Below, piece by piece: positions 53,349-63,162 of a DNA stretch of 64,000 nucleotides. Made by a program: the position numbers and the translations under genes. A model generated the notes under the pieces. That model made no database searches. It saw only the letters and a list, made by a program, of their open reading frames with translations, and had not been told where the DNA came from. This DNA is from Paraglaciecola sp. T6c (lineage in GTDB: Bacteria; Pseudomonadota; Gammaproteobacteria; Enterobacterales; Alteromonadaceae): positions 2,790,001 to 2,854,000 of the forward strand of contig NC_008228.1 in assembly GCF_000014225.1 (NCBI RefSeq). Direction: 5' to 3'. Every line of letters begins with the position of its first letter. Position 1 is the stretch's first letter.

Positions 53349-55775
53349 TTAAAACACCTGAACTGAAGTATCTGCGTCCCATCCAAATTTCACCTCAAGC
53401 GTGTTGGTTTCACTGTCCCAACGGGTCCCACGGTTTGCGTTTAAAAACGTCGTTTTGTCTTTAATCTGTGGTAATTGTTTGTCACCCACCAGCACTTGAT
53501 TAATATCTTGCGGCCAATTATGGATCCAAAGTGACACCATCCTGCTTCCCGGCATGCCTTTGAATTCTCCTGTGCGTTTAAGTTCAAACACTAAAGAATC
53601 GGGTTTGCTCTCGTCAACTTGACGCTTGGCTGTGAACGTCAGCGTTTCAAATGCCTTATCGCGAATAGCGTGAGGGTTTTTACCGTCATCGTTGTACATA
53701 ACGGACGTGGACGTTAACGCGCTTTTATCCGCGTAATAATGTAAATCGAGTGTTTTGGTTGAATAATCATCCGTACTCAGTACGGGTAACGTCATAGGGA
53801 TAATAGCCCCACCTCTAGCCAAGACAGGCAGCAACTTTATGTCAGTAGGCATGGTTATCGTTTGATCACCCTCATAGCGCTCGTCACTCCAAAAATTGAA
53901 CCAAGCTCCTTTGGGTAAGGTGATGCTGACCTCGTTCTGATTTGCTTGAGTGATAGGTTTAACCAATAACGCATCTCCCCAAAAATATTGATCCTTTACA
54001 TCGATGAGCGATATGTCATTTTCGTTTTCAAAAAACATCGGACGCATCAAGGGCATACCGGTCAAACTGTTCTCAAATGCCAAAGAGTAATTGTACGGCA
54101 TCATGGCGTAACGCAACTCTACATAGGTACGAAGAATATCCTTGGTTTTGCCTTTATGAAACACCGGTTCTGGGGCAATATTGTCTTGTGCGTGGGGTCT
54201 AAAAACAGGTTGAAAAATACCGTATTGCAACCAGCGAATATACATTTGCGGATCGAACACGTCGCCTCCTGCAAATCCGCCTAAATCAGAGTGAGTGTAC
54301 CCCAAGCCTAGCAAGCCCATTTGCAGTGATAATTCAACTTGCGGTTTCAAGCCATCCCAAGAGCGACTGACATCACCTGTCCATGGGATCATGCCGTAGC
54401 GCTGTGAGCCAACAAAACCTGAGCGCATCATGATAAAGGGTCTGGTGTTCGGCGCTAACGACACCTGATGTTGATAAACTTGTTCCGCCCACTTATGACC
54501 GTATGCATTGTGCACCTCGTCACCGGTTGCCAACATTCCATTAAGGTTATGCTGAGCATCTGCTGGGTGCACCTCTGGCTCACCTAAATCTCCCCACCAA
54601 CCCGCTACACCCTGTTTGTACAACGCTGCGTAGGTTTGGTTAAACCAATCGCGGGCGTCGTTATCGAACACATCAATTAGACCGGTATTGCCAAAGTAAA
54701 AATCGAATTGATAAGGATGACCTTCAGGATCTTTTACCAAGGCATTGTGCGTGACTGCCTCTTGCCAGTTTTTAGACGAAGACAGAATAAAAGGCTCAGT
54801 TATCACGACTGTTTTTACACCTTCTTTACGCAGATCACTGATCATCTTGACTGGCGTAGGAAAGGTCTTTTCGTCCCAACTCAAATTACCCATATGGCCT
54901 TTGATATCCGCTCCGAACCAATATAGGTCGAGCACGAGTGCATCCAATGGAAATCCGGATTCTTGGTATTGTTTTACCGTATCTCGCACTTCTTGCTCAC
55001 TACGATAGCCAAAGCGCGAGGCGAAACTGCCTAATGCCCATCTAGGCGGCAAAGGCTGCTTCCCCGTCACAGTGACGAAATTTTCAATTAACGATGGGTA
55101 GGTTTTTCCTGCAACGACAATGTAACTGGTACGTCCGCCTATCGCTTCAAAGCGCATTTCATCGCTATTGCTAGCACCTAAATCCATTTCCCCGCGGGCA
55201 GAGTTGTCGAATATCAATACATACTTATTACTCGACATAACAGCGGATAAACCGAAATACATCTGATTTGACTCAGTGGTGTAGCCGTAATGCGCTTTGT
55301 TATAAAGAGGAAAGCGCTGACCGCGACGATCCATCCCCACTATGCGCTCACCCCCACCAAGTAACTTTTCATTTTCTTGCAAATCGAAACTAAAACCTCG
55401 CTTGTCAGCGTCAATGAACAAGCCTTGTTGCTCAGCTAACAGTAGTTTGTCATCACGAAAATAGCGGATCCGCAGGGGCGATTTATCTATTTGTGCACGA
55501 ATACCAGGTGCGCTTAGCGTAAGGCGTGATGCATCATCTGATATCGTCAATTCTGTTTGCTTTGCGACCCCATCGATCGCAAATGATGGGAGTTGTTTAA
55601 TGCCTTTGGGTTGATAAAAGACTTCAAAAGAATCACTCGCCAGTGCCGTAATGCTAAGTTGCCCTTCATCAGTTTGAATATGCAGTACTTGGCCATTCAA
55701 TTCGTGTGATTGATACTCACTACTTGCCGCCGTAAATGCCAATAAAATCAGGCTAAGTCCAAATAACCGCATCAT
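53349..55775 (-). CDS. GH31 alpha-glucosidase
   Basis: 808 residues from the ATGATG at 55775, where a proper signal peptide (MMRLFGLSLILLAFTAASS) begins; a start 93 bp upstream is rejected. GH31 architecture: an N-terminal beta-sandwich (GLGGGERIVGMDRRGQRFPL-type region) and a TIM barrel with PPRWALGSFASRFGYRS, the catalytic nucleophile Asp in GWWGDLGEPEVH, and the acid/base Asp in IPWTGDVSRSWDGLK. C-terminal beta domains follow. It should release glucose from the ends of alpha-glucans in the periplasm. Last gene of the minus-strand operon with GH13 and esterase genes. Confidence 0.94.
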   Translation of the reverse strand: MMRLFGLSLILLAFTAASSEYQSHELNGQVLHIQTDEGQLSITALASDSFEVFYQPKGIKQLPSFAIDGVAKQTELTISDDASRLTLSAPGIRAQIDKSPLRIRYFRDDKLLLAEQQGLFIDADKRGFSFDLQENEKLLGGGERIVGMDRRGQRFPLYNKAHYGYTTESNQMYFGLSAVMSSNKYVLIFDNSARGEMDLGASNSDEMRFEAIGGRTSYIVVAGKTYPSLIENFVTVTGKQPLPPRWALGSFASRFGYRSEQEVRDTVKQYQESGFPLDALVLDLYWFGADIKGHMGNLSWDEKTFPTPVKMISDLRKEGVKTVVITEPFILSSSKNWQEAVTHNALVKDPEGHPYQFDFYFGNTGLIDVFDNDARDWFNQTYAALYKQGVAGWWGDLGEPEVHPADAQHNLNGMLATGDEVHNAYGHKWAEQVYQHQVSLAPNTRPFIMMRSGFVGSQRYGMIPWTGDVSRSWDGLKPQVELSLQMGLLGLGYTHSDLGGFAGGDVFDPQMYIRWLQYGIFQPVFRPHAQDNIAPEPVFHKGKTKDILRTYVELRYAMMPYNYSLAFENSLTGMPLMRPMFFENENDISLIDVKDQYFWGDALLVKPITQANQNEVSITLPKGAWFNFWSDERYEGDQTITMPTDIKLLPVLARGGAIIPMTLPVLSTDDYSTKTLDLHYYADKSALTSTSVMYNDDGKNPHAIRDKAFETLTFTAKRQVDESKPDSLVFELKRTGEFKGMPGSRMVSLWIHNWPQDINQVLVGDKQLPQIKDKTTFLNANRGTRWDSETNTLEVKFGWDADTSVQVF

Positions 55776-55917
55776 TATTTTTCGTCCAGTTGAAATGTGT
55801 ATTTTTATCATAAGTAGGTGCGAATTCTCTTTAATGTGCTCATTGCTAATGCATTGCAGCAATAACATGTATCTTCAATATAGGTGTCGATTAGGCAACT
55901 CCCAATTAATAACAAGC

Positions 55918-56784
55918 CTAATGTATCTCAAACAGCCATTCAATCGCATCGGTAAATGAATCACCCCAAAGTTGTTCATTGTGTTGCCCACCAGCGATGG
56001 ATACGAATTGCATGTTTTCACGAGGGTGACCCTGCTCTTTAATCAATCGCTGCATTTTGTCTGTATCAGCAATCATCCCGTCGCCCTCATTACTGCCGTA
56101 TAACACGTATAGACGAGCGGAATCTTTGCTTCTATGTAGCCTGGTATCACTGAACACATCTTGCGAATACCAATAAGAGGGAGAAAAAATAGCGGCTTTG
56201 CCGAACACATCTGGGTAATTGTGTATGGCGTAGTGGGTGATTAAGCCGCCCATTGAGCTGCCCATCATCGCGGTGTTTTTTACATCGACTTTAGTGCGAT
56301 AGTTGTTGTCGATATAAGGTTTCACTACATCCACAATCAACTGCATATATGCTTTTCCTTGTGCTTCCCCAAAGCGTTTATTGGCCCATGGACTAAGCTC
56401 ATTCATCCGAAAATCACCGCCGTTATCGATGGCAACAACGATAAATTTTCGTCCTGATGTTTTAGCCAGCGCGTTTAGACTTTCATCCACTCCCCATTCT
56501 TCAGCGTAAGCCGTGGCATTATCAAACAGGTTCTGTCCGTCATGCATGTAAATAACAGGGTATGACTGAGTTTCATGCTCATAATTCGGCGGTAGATAAA
56601 GGCGAACAGTTCTTTGGCGATCCAGTTCAGGTATTAAAAACGGATAAGGTAATACAGATACATTCGACGCGGCCGACGTCGGGCGCTGAATAACTTCGCC
56701 GCAACCAGATAGTACGAAAAACGTGAACACCATACCCATCACTAAAAACAACAGACGACTCAAACTCGCTATCCAATTCCGCAT
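55918..56784 (-). CDS. Esterase D-family alpha/beta hydrolase lipoprotein
   Basis: 288 residues. The signal sequence ends in a lipobox (FFVLSGCGEV, Cys28), so it is an envelope lipoprotein. Esterase (PF00756) fold: YPVIYMHDGQNLFD, the nucleophile Ser in MMGSSMGGLITHYA, Asp in YGSNEGDGM (or nearby) and His in GGQHNEQLW. Homologues frequently accompany starch and alpha-glucan genes and may deacylate substituted sugars. 47 bp downstream of the GH13 stop, so one operon. Confidence 0.9.
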   Translation of the reverse strand: MRNWIASLSRLLFLVMGMVFTFFVLSGCGEVIQRPTSAASNVSVLPYPFLIPELDRQRTVRLYLPPNYEHETQSYPVIYMHDGQNLFDNATAYAEEWGVDESLNALAKTSGRKFIVVAIDNGGDFRMNELSPWANKRFGEAQGKAYMQLIVDVVKPYIDNNYRTKVDVKNTAMMGSSMGGLITHYAIHNYPDVFGKAAIFSPSYWYSQDVFSDTRLHRSKDSARLYVLYGSNEGDGMIADTDKMQRLIKEQGHPRENMQFVSIAGGQHNEQLWGDSFTDAIEWLFEIH

Positions 56785-56831
56785 TTATCCTGCCTTTACA
56801 ATGTGGTTATCAAAAATTCTACCTGCGTGTT

Positions 56832-58784
56832 TTACTTCACGAGGTTCAGTACCACAGATTGTAACGATCCTAGCGTCATTGATATACGACCTTTTTGATT
56901 TTCCACGTTAATATTCATTTTTTGCTCACTGAGTAAATCGAACATCGTATATTCGCCATCAGGTAGCCCCCATTGAGAAATTAAGCTTTCGGGGATCACT
57001 AATTCGAACTGTTTCCCCCCTTGACTAAAGTTACTGACTACCACTATTTTTTGCTCGTCATCGAAGCGGCTGAATGCGTAAATAGACTCGCTGTATGTTG
57101 CTTCATCATTATCGTTGTTCTGATTAAGATTAACTGAATGCAAGTCCGCATAGGGCCCCGCCATCGCGCTTTGGCTTGCTGAGATACGTAACACCCGGCG
57201 ATAGTAATCCCGGAGGGCTTTTTCGCTTGGGGCTAACATCGCACCGTCGAATTTTCCTTGGTTCATCCAGCGTTGATGCGCTGGAACGCCAGCATAATCA
57301 AAAATGGTGGTGCGAGAGGCTGAACCAAAGCCCATATTTTCACTGCCATCTTCCCCCACTTCTTGGCCAAAATAAATGAGTGTCGGCGCGCGGCTTATTA
57401 AGGCTGATACGACTAATGCCGGCTTTCCTAATTCACTGCTGCCAGCAAACTGAGGGCTAGCGATGCGCTGCTCATCATGATTTTCCAAAAAGTGCAGCAT
57501 ATGCATCTCTATATCCGCTACTTCTGAATGCGCTTTTGTAATAACAGAAGCGGGTAATTGACCTTGCATGACCCCTTTTAAACTGTCATAAAAGCCGACT
57601 TTATCGTACAAGAAGTCCATTTTTCCCTGAGTAATATACTCTCGATACTTAGTCGGATCGTACACTTCAGCCAGTAAAAATGCCTCCGGATTGGTGTGTT
57701 TAATGTGCGAATTTAGATAACTCCAAAACGCCACTGGCACCATTTCAGCCATGTCGTATCGAAACCCATCTACACCTTTTGCCAACCAGTACTGGGTAAT
57801 ATCACGAAATTTAATCCATGAGTCCGGCACACTCTTATTTGTCCAGAACACCACATGTTCATCGGCCGTTTTGTCGGCATATTGCGCGGGTAGCGTGGCG
57901 AAATCGTAGCTCCCATCAGGCTTAACGCCGTAATTAACTTTCACTGTTTCATACCAATCATTGGCATCAGGTTGTGCTTTGCGTGAACCATTGCCCGTCC
58001 ACTTTGCGGGTGATTCTTTAAATTCCCCGTCAGCTAACGAGTGGGTTTCCCCGCCTAAAGGTTGATATCCTTGAGGGGCTTTTGGCACCGTGAAATCTTG
58101 CCCAACGACATAATAAAAGTTGTTATCTCGCGCATATTCAAGACTTACATCATCCTTTTCACCGAAATCACTCATACCATCAGGTTTTGCCAGCGATTGA
58201 TAATTTCTTGCCACGTGGTTAGGCACAATATCAATGATGACTTTCATGCCGTTTTTATGCGTGCGCTTTATCAGTGCCTCGAATTCTGCCAACCGGTTTG
58301 CTGGATCATCTGCCAAATCTGGGTTAACCGTGTAATAATCCTTTACAGCATATGGCGAGCCCGCTCTGCCTTTAACCACATCGGGATCGTCATTTGAAAT
58401 ACCGTACTCGCTATAGTCGGTGATCACATCGTGATGGGGTACGCCCGTATACCAAATATGACTGACGCCGAGTTCTTTTATGCCTTGCAGGGCTTCATCG
58501 GTAAAATCACTGAATTTCCCAACGCCGTTTTCTTCAATGGTGCCCCATGGCTTATTGGTGGTATTGGTATTGCCAAATAACCGGGTAAACACCTGGTACA
58601 CCACTGGCTTCACGTGCTCGTGCGTCATGTTCGCCACTGCGACGCCCCCCTTATATTGAACGTTTTCATCTCGCTTACCCGATTCATGCGAACAGGCAAA
58701 TAAACTACTAGTAAGCACTACAAGAGGCACACTCCACGCGCGAGTAAAAGAATATGAGAGCATGTATGACAACGGTAAACGCAT
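56832..58784 (-). CDS. GH13 alpha-amylase-family lipoprotein
   Basis: 650 residues from the ATG at 58784 (TTG 15 bp upstream possible). Lipobox TSSLFACSHES puts the lipid-anchored Cys at residue 31. GH13 catalytic signatures: VIIDIVPNHVAR, nucleophile Asp in GVDGFRYDMAEM, acid/base Glu in AFLLAEVYDP, transition-state Asp in FLENHDEQRIAS. It hydrolyses internal alpha-1,4 bonds of starch or glycogen-like glucans at the cell surface or in the periplasm. First gene of the operon with esterase and GH31, and divergent from the GH86 gene. Confidence 0.95.
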   Translation of the reverse strand: MRLPLSYMLSYSFTRAWSVPLVVLTSSLFACSHESGKRDENVQYKGGVAVANMTHEHVKPVVYQVFTRLFGNTNTTNKPWGTIEENGVGKFSDFTDEALQGIKELGVSHIWYTGVPHHDVITDYSEYGISNDDPDVVKGRAGSPYAVKDYYTVNPDLADDPANRLAEFEALIKRTHKNGMKVIIDIVPNHVARNYQSLAKPDGMSDFGEKDDVSLEYARDNNFYYVVGQDFTVPKAPQGYQPLGGETHSLADGEFKESPAKWTGNGSRKAQPDANDWYETVKVNYGVKPDGSYDFATLPAQYADKTADEHVVFWTNKSVPDSWIKFRDITQYWLAKGVDGFRYDMAEMVPVAFWSYLNSHIKHTNPEAFLLAEVYDPTKYREYITQGKMDFLYDKVGFYDSLKGVMQGQLPASVITKAHSEVADIEMHMLHFLENHDEQRIASPQFAGSSELGKPALVVSALISRAPTLIYFGQEVGEDGSENMGFGSASRTTIFDYAGVPAHQRWMNQGKFDGAMLAPSEKALRDYYRRVLRISASQSAMAGPYADLHSVNLNQNNDNDEATYSESIYAFSRFDDEQKIVVVSNFSQGGKQFELVIPESLISQWGLPDGEYTMFDLLSEQKMNINVENQKGRISMTLGSLQSVVLNLVK

Positions 58785-58950
58785 AAAGATAGTATCCAAT
58801 ACAGATAAATTAACAAATTAGTCACAAATCATACCTGCCATCCCTTACCCCGCATAGCGCCCTACATACGTATTCATCACCAAAGCAATGAAACAATCAC
58901 GGTCAAGAAGCCTGTATAAGACAACCCTTCACGTAAAACACCAAACATTT

Positions 58951-59087: not shown

Positions 59088-62000
59088 ATGTTAAAAGTCA
59101 TTCCGTGGTTGCTTGTAACGTCGAGTTTGGTCGCGATACCAACATACATACACGCAACGACAGAGGTAGTTGTTAATTTGAATGTCAAACATTCAGTTGA
59201 AGGTAAATCTGAATTTGAGCGCAAAAACCATATAAAACTGCATTCCACGCTAAACGATAATGATTGGCAGGGTGAAGAAGACAAACTTAAGTATATGATG
59301 GAAGAGTTAGACGTTTATTTTGGTCGAGATAACGGTGGCACCGTTTGGAATTTTAACCAAGCCATTGAGGACCCAGCCAACATAGGTTATGCAGATCCGC
59401 AGAATATCATCGCTCGGGGTCAAGCCCAGCGCGAAACCAATTGGGGACAAAACAAGTCTGCTTTACATCAATACGATGGCCGAGGAGACTTGATGATAGG
59501 CGGCCAACCCAGAGCGCATTATCTAGGTAACACTTCACCTTGTTGCGGTGGAAGTGCTTGGCAAGCAAAAGGTGGCGACGCGGTCGGTGATTTCCTTGGA
59601 CAATATGTTAACGAGTTTTTTCGTTCTGCGGGTGATCCCGTGACAAAGGGACACCTAGCGCCCGTTTACTTTGAAGTGCTTAACGAACCTCTTTATCAGG
59701 TAACGGATGCGCCACATGAACTCGGATTAGAGCAGCCCATCCCGCCAATCGATATTTTTACCTTTCATAACGACGTTGCCGATGCTTTTCGACAACACAA
59801 CACCCATATAAAAATTGGTGGCTTTACGGTGGCATTCCCTATATTTGAGCAAAGAGAGTTTGCTCGCTGGGAAGAAAGAATGAAGCTATTTATTGATACC
59901 AGTGGCAGCCATATGGATGTGTATTCAACCCATTTTTATGATCTTGAGGACGACAATCGTTTTAAAGGTAGTCGACTCGAAGCAACATTAGACATGATAG
60001 ATCAATATTCGCTACTCGCTTTAGGTGAAACCAAACCTCACGTTATTTCAGAATATGGCGGCCGAAATAGACCCATGGAAAATGCGCCTTGGTCTGCATT
60101 ACGCGATTGGTGGTTTCTTAAAACCGCTAGCCCCATGTTAATGCAATTTCTCAGTCGTCCCGATTCCGTCTTAACCTCTATTCCCTTTGTCCCCATCAAA
60201 GCGTTGTGGGGCACGGCAGCAGACGGTACGCCCTACAATTGGCGATTACTTCGTCAACAAAAGGAAGCACCGAATGAAACCGGTGAAAACTGGGTATTTA
60301 CTGAAATGGTCAAATTTTATCAGCTATGGTCCGATGTAAAAGGCACTCGCGTTGATACCTTTTCCACTAACAGTGATTTCCTTATTGATAGCTATGTACA
60401 AAATGACAAAGCATATGTGCTGATCAGTAATCTTACTGAACAAGCGGAAAAAATTGTTGTGCACAAGTACGGCGCGCCTGCGTCAAGTCAGCCCACGACA
60501 CGCATTAAGCATCTGTATCTCAAAGGCGCAGCCCCCGCGCTTGATGAAACAAGTCATGCGTCAGATATCCAAGAAGTCACGATTGCTGCTGAAGCGACTA
60601 TGGTAATCGAATACGATTACCCTTCAGACATCGTCATCAACGAAACATCACAAGAGAAAAAGTATTTTGCCACTGAATATTTAAAACCCATTTCAGCCAA
60701 TCAAATCAGTCGCTTTAATATTAATTCGGTTGCTACAAGCGCGCTTGGTGAAGGCATATTGCGCGTTGTTGTTGGGCGTAAGTTAGGCAAGTCTCTCGCA
60801 CCAACTATCGCTGTTAATGGAGAAACCTTAACAGCTTCAGCACAAATTTCTGGGGATATTCAGAACACCCGAGGCGACTTTTTTGGTGTTATCGAATTTC
60901 CTGTCCCCATTGACCTTTTGCGCACTAATAACGAAATAGATGTGACCTTTGGCGATGATGGGGGACATATTGCCAGCGTGAACCTTAAAGTGTTTAGCTT
61001 CACATCAGATGTCCGCCCCAGTGCTGGCCCTGTAAAGGGGATCACTATTGAGCCCACATCGGCTGTGGTCGCTGTGGGAAGCACACTACAACTAAACCCC
61101 ACTATCACCCCGTACTTTGCCACCAACCAAAATTATTTTTTGCAATCCAGTGCGCCCGAGGTGGCTACTGTAACGCAAACAGGTTTGGTGAGTGCCTTAA
61201 TGCAGGGGGAAGCGAGGATCACTGCAACCACTGAAGAGGGCAGCTTTATTGCTCAGGTAGACATCGAGGTTGAGTTGCCCTCCCCTACGTCGATCACATT
61301 CGATGATCAAAGCATTTACGCAAGTACGGTATATACCGCAGGTGAAGCTATGCACGTCACCACTGAGTATGATGCTGGTACGGGCCATACTGTGACGGCA
61401 GCACTTGGCGGGGTCGAATACAGACTGCGTCATTTAACCGCTAGTTTTGGCTTAATATCTGATGTTGCTATTGTGCAAGATGGTCACGCGGTCAATACTC
61501 AACGTGGTACATCTAGCGTCGAATTAGCCCTACCCACCAATTTACAAGCCAGTGCAGACCTCCCTGATGGCGAGTTCTATTTTTTATTTGTTAGGGTGGT
61601 TTCTAGTAACGGGGAAACTCAATCAACAAGTGCTTTCCCGGTTAGTATTGAAGCAGGCAATATTGACACAAGCCCGTCGTTAACACTGGATGATGCGCGT
61701 AAATATCGCGATACAATCTACAAAACAGACCAACAACTTACTGTAACAGCACATTATCAGGCGGGCGATGGAAATACAGTGACGAGTGAGCAAGGCGGCG
61801 TGCGCTTTTACCTACGTGAACTGGACGCAAATTTTGGCCTCATCAATGACATCATTATCGAAGATGCCTCAGCAATCGGTCAACAAGTAGGTGCTGCCAC
61901 CGCTACCTTTTCACTAGCAGACTTAACGCCCAGCGCAGCCTTACCTGCTGGGCATTTTTACTATTTGTTTGCTGTTTTTAATAGCACCAACGGCGATAAA

Positions 62001-62603
62001 TATAACATTCCTGGTGTATTTCCCATTCGTATCGAGCAAGAGGTGAGTGAGCTTTCCTTGACATTTAGCGAGCCGAATTTATATCGCTCCACAGACTACG
62101 AAGTGGGCGGTTCATTAGCGGTTTCAGTTGATTTTGATATGGGTACAGGCAACGCTGTCAGTGATGAGCTAGGCGGTATACGTTTCTTCTTACGCCATCT
62201 GAGAGAAGACTACTCTATGGTTAAAGACATCATACTCGAAGATGCCAATGCAATTGGTCAGCAATCGGGCTCAGCCAGCGTCACGTTTTCCCTCGCCAAT
62301 ATAGCGGCGAGTGATGCACTACCCGCCAATGATTTTTACTTTCTTTATGTACTCGTCAAGTCCACTGACGGCGCCACCCAAGACCTCGCTGTGCAACGTA
62401 TCAACATCGTCAGCCCTGCGTTGGTCGGCGATTACGACCTAGATGGCGACGTGGATATCAACGACATACAAAGCTTAATCGTTGCTATTCATATGCGGCA
62501 ATCTATCGACCTGTCTTTTGATATGAATAGCGATGGTACGGTTAACTTACTCGACACACGACTACTCATGAACGCATGCACCCGAACCCGCTGTGCACCC
62601 TAG
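59088..62603 (+). CDS. Secreted GH86 beta-agarase/porphyranase with Ig-like domains and a C-terminal dockerin
   Basis: 1171 residues. Signal peptide to about residue 23 (IHA). The GH86 catalytic module (about 30-560) shows DVYFGRDNGGTVWNFNQAIED, the acid/base Glu200 in EVLNEPLY and nucleophile Glu322 in HVISEYGGRNRP. A beta-sandwich (to about 645), a Big_2 domain (about 647-727) and three tandem homologous modules of about 120 residues (from about 734, 863 and 988) follow. The last 59 residues are a type I-like dockerin: two calcium loops, DYDLDGDVDIND and DMNSDGTVNLLD. It cuts agar or porphyran outside the cell. GH86 contains both activities. A secreted cohesin-like protein follows 31 bp downstream. 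Confidence 0.93.
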   Translation: MLKVIPWLLVTSSLVAIPTYIHATTEVVVNLNVKHSVEGKSEFERKNHIKLHSTLNDNDWQGEEDKLKYMMEELDVYFGRDNGGTVWNFNQAIEDPANIGYADPQNIIARGQAQRETNWGQNKSALHQYDGRGDLMIGGQPRAHYLGNTSPCCGGSAWQAKGGDAVGDFLGQYVNEFFRSAGDPVTKGHLAPVYFEVLNEPLYQVTDAPHELGLEQPIPPIDIFTFHNDVADAFRQHNTHIKIGGFTVAFPIFEQREFARWEERMKLFIDTSGSHMDVYSTHFYDLEDDNRFKGSRLEATLDMIDQYSLLALGETKPHVISEYGGRNRPMENAPWSALRDWWFLKTASPMLMQFLSRPDSVLTSIPFVPIKALWGTAADGTPYNWRLLRQQKEAPNETGENWVFTEMVKFYQLWSDVKGTRVDTFSTNSDFLIDSYVQNDKAYVLISNLTEQAEKIVVHKYGAPASSQPTTRIKHLYLKGAAPALDETSHASDIQEVTIAAEATMVIEYDYPSDIVINETSQEKKYFATEYLKPISANQISRFNINSVATSALGEGILRVVVGRKLGKSLAPTIAVNGETLTASAQISGDIQNTRGDFFGVIEFPVPIDLLRTNNEIDVTFGDDGGHIASVNLKVFSFTSDVRPSAGPVKGITIEPTSAVVAVGSTLQLNPTITPYFATNQNYFLQSSAPEVATVTQTGLVSALMQGEARITATTEEGSFIAQVDIEVELPSPTSITFDDQSIYASTVYTAGEAMHVTTEYDAGTGHTVTAALGGVEYRLRHLTASFGLISDVAIVQDGHAVNTQRGTSSVELALPTNLQASADLPDGEFYFLFVRVVSSNGETQSTSAFPVSIEAGNIDTSPSLTLDDARKYRDTIYKTDQQLTVTAHYQAGDGNTVTSEQGGVRFYLRELDANFGLINDIIIEDASAIGQQVGAATATFSLADLTPSAALPAGHFYYLFAVFNSTNGDKYNIPGVFPIRIEQEVSELSLTFSEPNLYRSTDYEVGGSLAVSVDFDMGTGNAVSDELGGIRFFLRHLREDYSMVKDIILEDANAIGQQSGSASVTFSLANIAASDALPANDFYFLYVLVKSTDGATQDLAVQRINIVSPALVGDYDLDGDVDINDIQSLIVAIHMRQSIDLSFDMNSDGTVNLLDTRLLMNACTRTRCAP

Positions 62604-62634
62604 TCAAACAAAATAAGAATAAGGAATATATCTC

Positions 62635-63162
62635 ATGAAAAAATTACTGTTAATTTTAGCACTGTGTTTTAGCCTACCCAGCCAAGCGAACTTGCTTACC
62701 CTAGATGTCAGTTCGCCTGAATTAAACATAGGCGAGGCGCTTTCGGTCACCGTATCCGCTACAAATTTTGATCCATTCAGTACTCTGGGCTTTGAAATAG
62801 AATTTGACACTGATCTTTTTGCTTTCGCGCCTAATTCGGTGGGCGGTGACTTAGCAAATACTGGAGCATTTATTTTTGAGGTCAGCGCACAAACGTATGG
62901 TGTTGCGATGTCTTTTATCGACTTTGAGGATTTTACGCAGCCAAACTTTAGTGCATTCACGTTTAATTTGACCGCTATTGCCTCTGGTTCCACTGACTTT
63001 ACCTTAGCCAATATCCAATCCTTTATGCCCATTGACAGTGCGGCTCTAAACGCGTCAGCGCAAGTTAACTCAGTACCCGCAGCAGGCACGTTCAGCATTT
63101 TTCTTTTTACTGCATTTTGCCTCGCGCTGCGTCACCGCACTCGGGCCCGGTTAACTAGCTAA
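62635..63162 (+). CDS. Secreted cohesin-like protein with a C-terminal sorting/anchor tail
   Basis: 175 residues. Signal peptide MKKLLLILALCFSLPSQA. Residues about 22-140 look like a cohesin: SPELNIGEALSVTVSATNFD, then LGFEIEFDTDLFAFAP, VAMSFIDFEDF and a final FTFNLTAIASG strand. The tail (from about 147) reads VPAAGT, a hydrophobic stretch, then RHRTRAR, the order of a PEP-CTERM-like sorting signal. AAGGA precedes the ATG and no terminator separates it from the GH86-dockerin gene. It is the natural candidate to hold that enzyme on the cell surface. The cohesin call rests on pattern alone. Confidence 0.8.
   Translation: MKKLLLILALCFSLPSQANLLTLDVSSPELNIGEALSVTVSATNFDPFSTLGFEIEFDTDLFAFAPNSVGGDLANTGAFIFEVSAQTYGVAMSFIDFEDFTQPNFSAFTFNLTAIASGSTDFTLANIQSFMPIDSAALNASAQVNSVPAAGTFSIFLFTAFCLALRHRTRARLTS

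Follow-up and report, generated by a model that had tools for sequence, protein, structure and literature searches.

A dockerin-tagged GH86 enzyme and an adjacent cohesin with a CTERM-like tail: a candidate two-component system for enzyme retention in marine gammaproteobacteria

INTRODUCTION

The role of cohesins and dockerins outside cellulosomes is an old open question. It is raised by a two-gene locus at positions 59,088 to 63,162 of a 64,000-nucleotide stretch of Paraglaciecola sp. T6c DNA (contig NC_008228.1, positions 2,790,001 to 2,854,000), called the window below. There, a secreted GH86 enzyme ends in a dockerin, and the next gene codes for a small secreted cohesin with a tail of the CTERM layout. 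Do the two proteins form a pair, and what would such a pair do for the enzyme?

We propose, with a probability of about 0.7, that the cassette is a two-component enzyme-retention system in which the C-terminal sorting signal is split off onto a monovalent cohesin-CTERM adaptor. The enzyme would be exported with a dockerin in place of an anchor of its own, while the adjacent gene would supply a monovalent cohesin with a CTERM-like tail. Exosortase A would process that tail and deliver the cohesin to the envelope or the exopolysaccharide layer, where calcium-dependent dockerin-cohesin binding would keep the enzyme near the cell. If true, this would explain how polymer degraders keep nucleases, proteases and agarases nearby, tie exosortase-based sorting to an adaptor that binds non-covalently, and provide a set of protein-pairing tags.

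RESULTS

A dockerin-bearing enzyme is followed by a cohesin gene

The features that define the cassette, with their basis in brackets, are as follows.

59088..62603, + strand: secreted, beta-agarase-like GH86 enzyme of 1171 amino acids with a dockerin at its C-terminus (open reading frame [ORF] list, Pfam, PDB profile alignment)
62412..62600, + strand: dockerin module, residues 1109-1171, with two Ca-binding loops and two helices (PF00404, alignment, AlphaFold2, Foldseek)
62577..62594, + strand: C-x4-C motif 3' of the second dockerin helix, Cys1164 and Cys1169 (alignment of paired dockerins)
62604..62634, no strand: 31-bp intergenic gap with a ribosome-site-like AAGGA and no terminator-like site found by scan (ORF list, scan)
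62635..63162, + strand: small secreted cohesin with CTERM-like tail, 175 amino acids (ORF list, Pfam, alignment)
62635..62688, + strand: putative signal peptide of the cohesin, residues 1-18, ending in SQA (translation and cohesin alignment)
62692..63054, + strand: cohesin domain, residues ~20-140 (PF00963, 17 bits; PDB profile match; model and Foldseek)
63073..63159, + strand: CTERM-like sorting tail composed of VPAAG, a hydrophobic helix and a basic end (model helix 149-174)

Both genes lie on the same strand, 31 bp apart, and the AAGGA run, noticed by eye, stands immediately 5' of the cohesin ATG. The ORFs and the scan agree with an earlier note on this DNA, which had described a secreted GH86 gene and a small secreted gene 31 bp on with no terminator between. 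A minus-strand ORF overlapping the cohesin gene (62604-63098) was disregarded as a mechanical ORF.

The double calcium-loop dockerin that the same note had placed at the enzyme's end was confirmed by alignment and model. PF00404 scored 25.0 bits on the enzyme in a whole-genome search and 19.8 bits by hmmscan, so that its cut-off of 22.9 was passed in the former only. The AlphaFold2 model of the module consists of two helices (predicted local distance difference test [pLDDT] 87.1), and rows 1-17 of its Foldseek search were all dockerins, albeit with weak E-values (best, 0.066).

For the cohesin, the profile search proposed in the earlier note gave 17.0 bits with PF00963, under the gathering cut-off of 24.1. 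A T6c paralogue scored 32.1 bits, over the cut-off, and 12 of the 13 members of our cohesin alignment matched PF00963 at E ≤1. The profile of this family matched the solved cohesin 3l8q in the PDB (E 5.7e-13), and rows 1-26 of a Foldseek search with the model of the window cohesin were cohesins by title and chain length (best E 3.4e-5; template modeling [TM] score ~0.5). The small protein is thus predicted to have the cohesin fold that had been suggested for it, and whose absence the note had listed as a refuting result.

Cohesin and dockerin genes are neighbors across genomes

Conservation of the pairing was surveyed in 118 related genomes, T6c included, with profiles trained on alignments of 14 dockerins (A1) and 13 cohesins (A2). 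The dockerin profile matched 53 genomes; the cohesin profile, searched separately, matched 67 at E ≤0.001, with many of the weaker matches confined to the tail. Cohesins were taken from the matches listed to E ~4.5e-5, which yielded 93 rows, 85 at E ≤1e-9 and 8 weaker ones mostly spanning the model; the remaining weaker, mostly partial rows were left out. Nine of the 93 were removed for being weak or incomplete, among them one beside a dockerin, which left 84 full-length cohesins.

A dockerin lay within 6 kb of 76 of these 84 (E ≤1e-9, 43 genomes), always on the same strand and before the cohesin in 65 cases and after it in 11, with none on the opposite strand; the chance expectation is ~0.35 of 84. 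As the A2 cohesins had been chosen for adjoining dockerins, the fairer count is the one without these 13, namely, 63 of 71. Five of the other eight cohesins adjoin divergent dockerin-like ends, three of them with a profile match (E 7e-5 to 1e-2) and the other two recognized by eye, and three of the 84 are unpaired. Absence of the two genes from each other's side at homologous loci, which the earlier note had named as fatal to its reading, was therefore not what we found.

The pairing extends beyond this set. A scan of a wider collection with six closer dockerins gave 13 loci. Of 370 sampled gammaproteobacterial genomes, 13 gave a match to the dockerin profile, and 10 of these belong to families other than that of T6c. 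A cohesin gene lies within 0.8 kb in seven of the 10 (one at a contig end), and none lies within 1.5 kb in the other three. A further 397 genomes of the phylum added five genomes with a dockerin match, with an adjacent cohesin in two and not in three. Dockerin/cohesin-CTERM pairs were also seen in metagenome-assembled genomes labeled Acidobacteria or Desulfobulbaceae (L132 6209-7719 and L133 1856-5811), for which binning errors are, as always, a concern.

Where the dockerin is N-terminal, the order of the genes changes accordingly: in three such cases the cohesin gene lies just upstream, with 111, 111 and 248 bases between the matches, and the two modules thus stay close in the DNA. Loci of this kind are L188 7003-14317, L187 3760-7955, L222 and L226. 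At L231 (1-3188), a single cohesin gene separates a dockerin-ended gene from one whose dockerin lies close to the start.

Paired modules share their anatomy and diverge together

After removal of duplicates, 80 pairs from 43 genomes were available, including seven pairs from six genomes outside the 118. Their median intergenic gap is 37 bp, and the cohesin follows the dockerin in 65 and precedes it in 15. Four Asp columns are invariant in all 80 dockerins. The C-x4-C motif is likewise present in 80 of 80 (E ≤1e-6), with a profile that itself includes these cysteines; five divergent dockerin-like ends beside cohesins lack it, and hence it is common but not required, and we dropped it as a defining mark of paired dockerins. 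These five cysteine-free ends adjoin the cohesins of L171-L174 and L176, and some of them are on ExeM-type nucleases. A second cysteine pair, one residue before Ca loop 1 and one in helix 2, is complete in 27 dockerins and wholly absent from the other 53; it is likely a disulfide clamp that marks a dockerin subtype. Both cysteine pairs are putative disulfides, as would fit a protein that folds in the periplasm.

Dockerin distances correlate with cohesin distances (r 0.655 over all 80 pairs; 0.78 within genomes, 66 comparisons). When cohesins were permuted within genomes, r averaged 0.18 (standard deviation, 0.06), and none of 2,000 permutations reached the observed value. Correlated divergence is what binding partners would show, but it can also stem from joint inheritance of neighboring genes. 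In an alternative scenario, the modules would not bind each other: the dockerin would cap the end of the enzyme and be stabilized by calcium, and the cohesin would be an unrelated surface protein that shares the operon and is inherited along with it. The existence of dockerins with no cohesin nearby speaks for this scenario. We nevertheless hold it to be highly unlikely, given that the pairing recurs with many unrelated cargo families and in both gene orders (65 versus 15), and that beside the nuclease ExeM the cohesin goes together with the dockerin tail, as described below.

Partner cohesins carry CTERM-like tails and co-occur with exosortase

The tail of the window cohesin consists of VPAAGT, a hydrophobic segment and RHRTRAR, i.e., the CTERM layout; it lacks a glycine-rich motif. 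CTERM-like tails were present in 79 of the 80 partner cohesins, compared with 8 among 114 control ORFs of about the same length, and 10 of the 13 members of the cohesin alignment matched PF07589 (E ≤1). The sole partner cohesin without such a tail (L082 3803-4285, minus strand) ends shortly after VPEPG, perhaps because of a frameshift or an assembly error.

An exosortase gene was found in 73 of the 118 genomes, among them 42 of the 43 with a full-length cohesin and 43 of the 44 with a strong dockerin. T6c has a single exosortase gene, XrtA (296.6 bits; cut-off 208), whose neighbors include four other exopolysaccharide genes of the XrtA system, all over their cut-offs. Of the eight PEP-CTERM matches that exceed the cut-off in T6c, two are cohesins. 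Exosortase A may act on the tail of the window cohesin. Rhombosortase is also encoded in T6c (183.6 bits; cut-off 84).

ExeM occurs with a dockerin or with other tails

The nuclease family ExeM offers a natural control, as the same nuclease occurs with a GlyGly-CTERM instead of a dockerin. We read 49 distinct ExeM loci of 92 listed, namely, the best 30 plus 20 picked, one of which was a repeat. Cohesin genes were sought in the available flank of ~0.8 to 3 kb. ExeM ended in a dockerin or dockerin-like module at 21 of the 49 loci (one end, at L204, recognized by eye), and a cohesin gene lay next door in 16 of the 21. No cohesin was present in the flank read at any of the other 28 loci. At four of these ExeM ends in a GlyGly-CTERM, and one of the four comes from the genus of T6c. 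The counts of 21 and 28 are no random sample, because the 20 loci were picked mainly for having no dockerin listed. Two genomes (G035 and G044) carry both versions. The dockerin and the cohesin-CTERM together thus seem to take the place of a signal in one piece.

Where would the adaptor hold its enzyme? In Shewanella, ExeM with GlyGly-CTERM was recovered nearly exclusively with the cytoplasmic membrane and was not found in the medium, and it kept its membrane location even when the putative anchor was deleted (PMC6085458). This confinement would fit a cohesin tethered in the inner membrane by its tail as a folding or secretion adaptor, which catches the dockerin and then releases the enzyme free into the medium. 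Such a role would also accord with the helix predicted for the cohesin tail by the model, and GlyGly-CTERM proteins have been proposed to be anchored for a time before they cross the outer membrane (PMC3237569). On the other hand, a calcium-dependent plug would be an odd choice for a transient contact, and the co-occurrence with exosortase suggests sorting. We regard a transient adaptor, the main rival, as unlikely and favor retention of the enzyme at the cell.

The cassette serves varied cargo

The T6c genome, one contig of 5,187,005 bases, holds four dockerin/cohesin cassettes, composed of five dockerin genes beside four cohesin genes. In addition to the GH86 pair, they comprise an ExeM/NucH nuclease with a cohesin, on whose far side lies an S8 protease that likewise ends in a dockerin; a 1376-residue PKD/PPC protein with a cohesin; and a 623-residue protein with an IgGFc-binding domain, also with a cohesin. 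The enzymes found on dockerin genes by Pfam and NCBIfam are ExeM/NucH nucleases, S8, M4, M9 and M43 peptidases, GH86, a GH42-like enzyme and a metallophosphoesterase; other cargo domains are BNR, CBM, PKD, PASTA, VWA and IgGFc-binding. Because the cargo is so varied, we rejected the view of the earlier note that the pair is a device for one red-algal polysaccharide enzyme, be it for agar or for porphyran. Dockerin proteins of the GH86 type are also encoded in four other genomes (G003, G004, G029 and G070). In a conserved family of ~1270 residues (L099, L102 and L107-L109), the cohesin gene lies upstream, and downstream follows a gene for a protein of ~150 residues, the latter in some cases with a lipobox-like start; L109, the one member scanned, is an M4-type metalloprotease.

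We consider it fairly probable that the cassette represents a general split sorting system of marine gammaproteobacteria: a dockerin, usually disulfide-bearing, would be the address tag on unrelated exported proteins, and an exosortase-sorted monovalent cohesin-CTERM its receiver, the two being evolutionarily interchangeable with GlyGly-CTERM.

Sharing of cohesins between enzymes was also considered. The T6c cohesin between the dockerin enzymes ExeM and S8 recalls a cellulosome-like scaffold, in which several dockerin enzymes share cohesins in trans and form multi-enzyme complexes. So does genome G029, where four strong dockerins, including one carried by a GH86 enzyme similar to the window's, have no cohesin nearby and one unpaired cohesin is found elsewhere; this suggests use in trans. 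The partner cohesin ORFs of the 80 pairs, however, are 160 to 245 amino acids long, with room for one cohesin each, and a single cohesin cannot bridge enzymes alone. A scaffold is thus very improbable. The window cohesin ORF, with 175 amino acids and one cohesin, is not a cellulosome scaffoldin, which has several.

Several observations weigh against retention by a split signal

Besides joint inheritance, the following points count against our proposal of a split, cohesin-borne sorting signal. Seen from the dockerin side, pairing is looser: a listed cohesin lies within 6 kb of 76 of the 93 strong dockerins (E ≤1e-11) and of none of the other 17. Two of these 17, both in G003, have a cohesin next door after all by local profile, and the neighbor of a third, in G050, matches the cohesin profile over its first 36 residues only. 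No cohesin was found in the stretch read beside the GH42-like dockerin protein of G029, so that a cohesin neighbor is not universal across cargo. Among the 15 genomes sampled later, nine have an adjacent cohesin and six have none within 1.5 kb. G038 has a dockerin and neither cohesin nor exosortase, and G017, a draft 92% complete, has a cohesin without an exosortase. The model of the window cohesin is moderately confident (pLDDT 68.7, predicted TM score 0.52; the other four models, 37-55). Lastly, the tail of this protein matched none of the PEP-CTERM models, and so the PEP-CTERM-type tail suggested in the earlier note stands as to its layout but not as to a profile match.

The enzyme is more likely a beta-agarase than a porphyranase

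The remaining parts of the enzyme are as follows.

59088..59159, + strand: putative signal peptide, residues ~1-24 (read from translation)
59160..61058, + strand: GH86 catalytic region and beta-sandwich domains, residues 25-657 (8h97 alignment; PF18206, PF18040)
61029..61256, + strand: Big_2 Ig-like domain, residues 648-723 (PF02368, E 3.1e-14)
61287..62411, + strand: linker of three similar modules of ~120 amino acids each (by eye in translation)

Pfam matches of the enzyme are PF18206 (E 1.3e-21) and PF18040 (E 2.5e-26). Its best solved relative is the beta-agarase 8h97, with E 5e-147 over residues 25-657, compared with E 1.3e-64 for the GH86 porphyranase 4aw7. Beta-agarase is therefore likelier than porphyranase, our first guess, which the PDB matches placed behind; of the agar or porphyran enzyme named in the earlier note, the agar part is the one favored. 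A Pfam scan of the three linker modules returned no convincing match, a sub-threshold DIX being the only one. On the minus strand at 53349-58799 lies a divergent gene cluster whose GH31, esterase and alpha-amylase-type members point to alpha-glucan use, and hence no agar locus is evident on that side of the GH86 gene.

DISCUSSION

The recurrence of this plug-and-socket gene pair suggests a hitherto undescribed way to keep enzymes at the cell. Among the open PubMed Central literature matches listed, to the extent of their text consulted and with subscription papers mostly outside the scope, there is no description of adjacent dockerin-enzyme/cohesin-CTERM cassettes. Marine bacteria offer many such candidate pairs, which are small, adjacent and separately testable. 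A related construct has been engineered: as outlined in a review (PMC12484212), Escherichia coli was made to display a neoagarobiose hydrolase through an Archaeoglobus cohesin-dockerin pair, which seems, by analogy, a man-made version of the apparent role of the GH86 cassette. The original study is probably PMC9705933.

Isolated modules outside cellulosomes have precedents in Saccharophagus degradans, in anaerobic methanotrophic (ANME) archaea and in Archaeoglobus. The genome of S. degradans, a marine gammaproteobacterium, has two dockerin-like and six cohesin-like ORFs, for which binding tests were proposed (PMC2386152), and modules of both kinds abound in ANME-1 and ANME-2a archaea (PMC5244752). 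Unlike our cassettes, these modules are not described, in the portions of those reports at hand, as adjacent enzyme/anchor genes or as subject to a tail swap, and their function is left open there.

With the cellulosomes of Clostridia, the cassette shares the placement of the dockerin on the enzyme and of the cohesin on the anchor, as well as the folds of both. It differs in having a single cohesin and no scaffoldin, a CTERM-like tail in place of the wall anchor of Gram-positive bacteria, and dockerins mostly with C-x4-C, and in occurring in marine gammaproteobacteria. With PEP-CTERM/exosortase A sorting, it shares the CTERM layout, and XrtA and exopolysaccharide genes are present in the T6c genome, but the signal is on a separate adaptor and not on the enzyme. 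Finally, GlyGly-CTERM/rhombosortase anchoring of ExeM concerns the same enzyme family and apparently the same need; there, the signal is in one piece on the enzyme, and no cohesin was seen beside the four such loci, whereas in the cassette described here enzyme and signal would meet through a dockerin and its cohesin.

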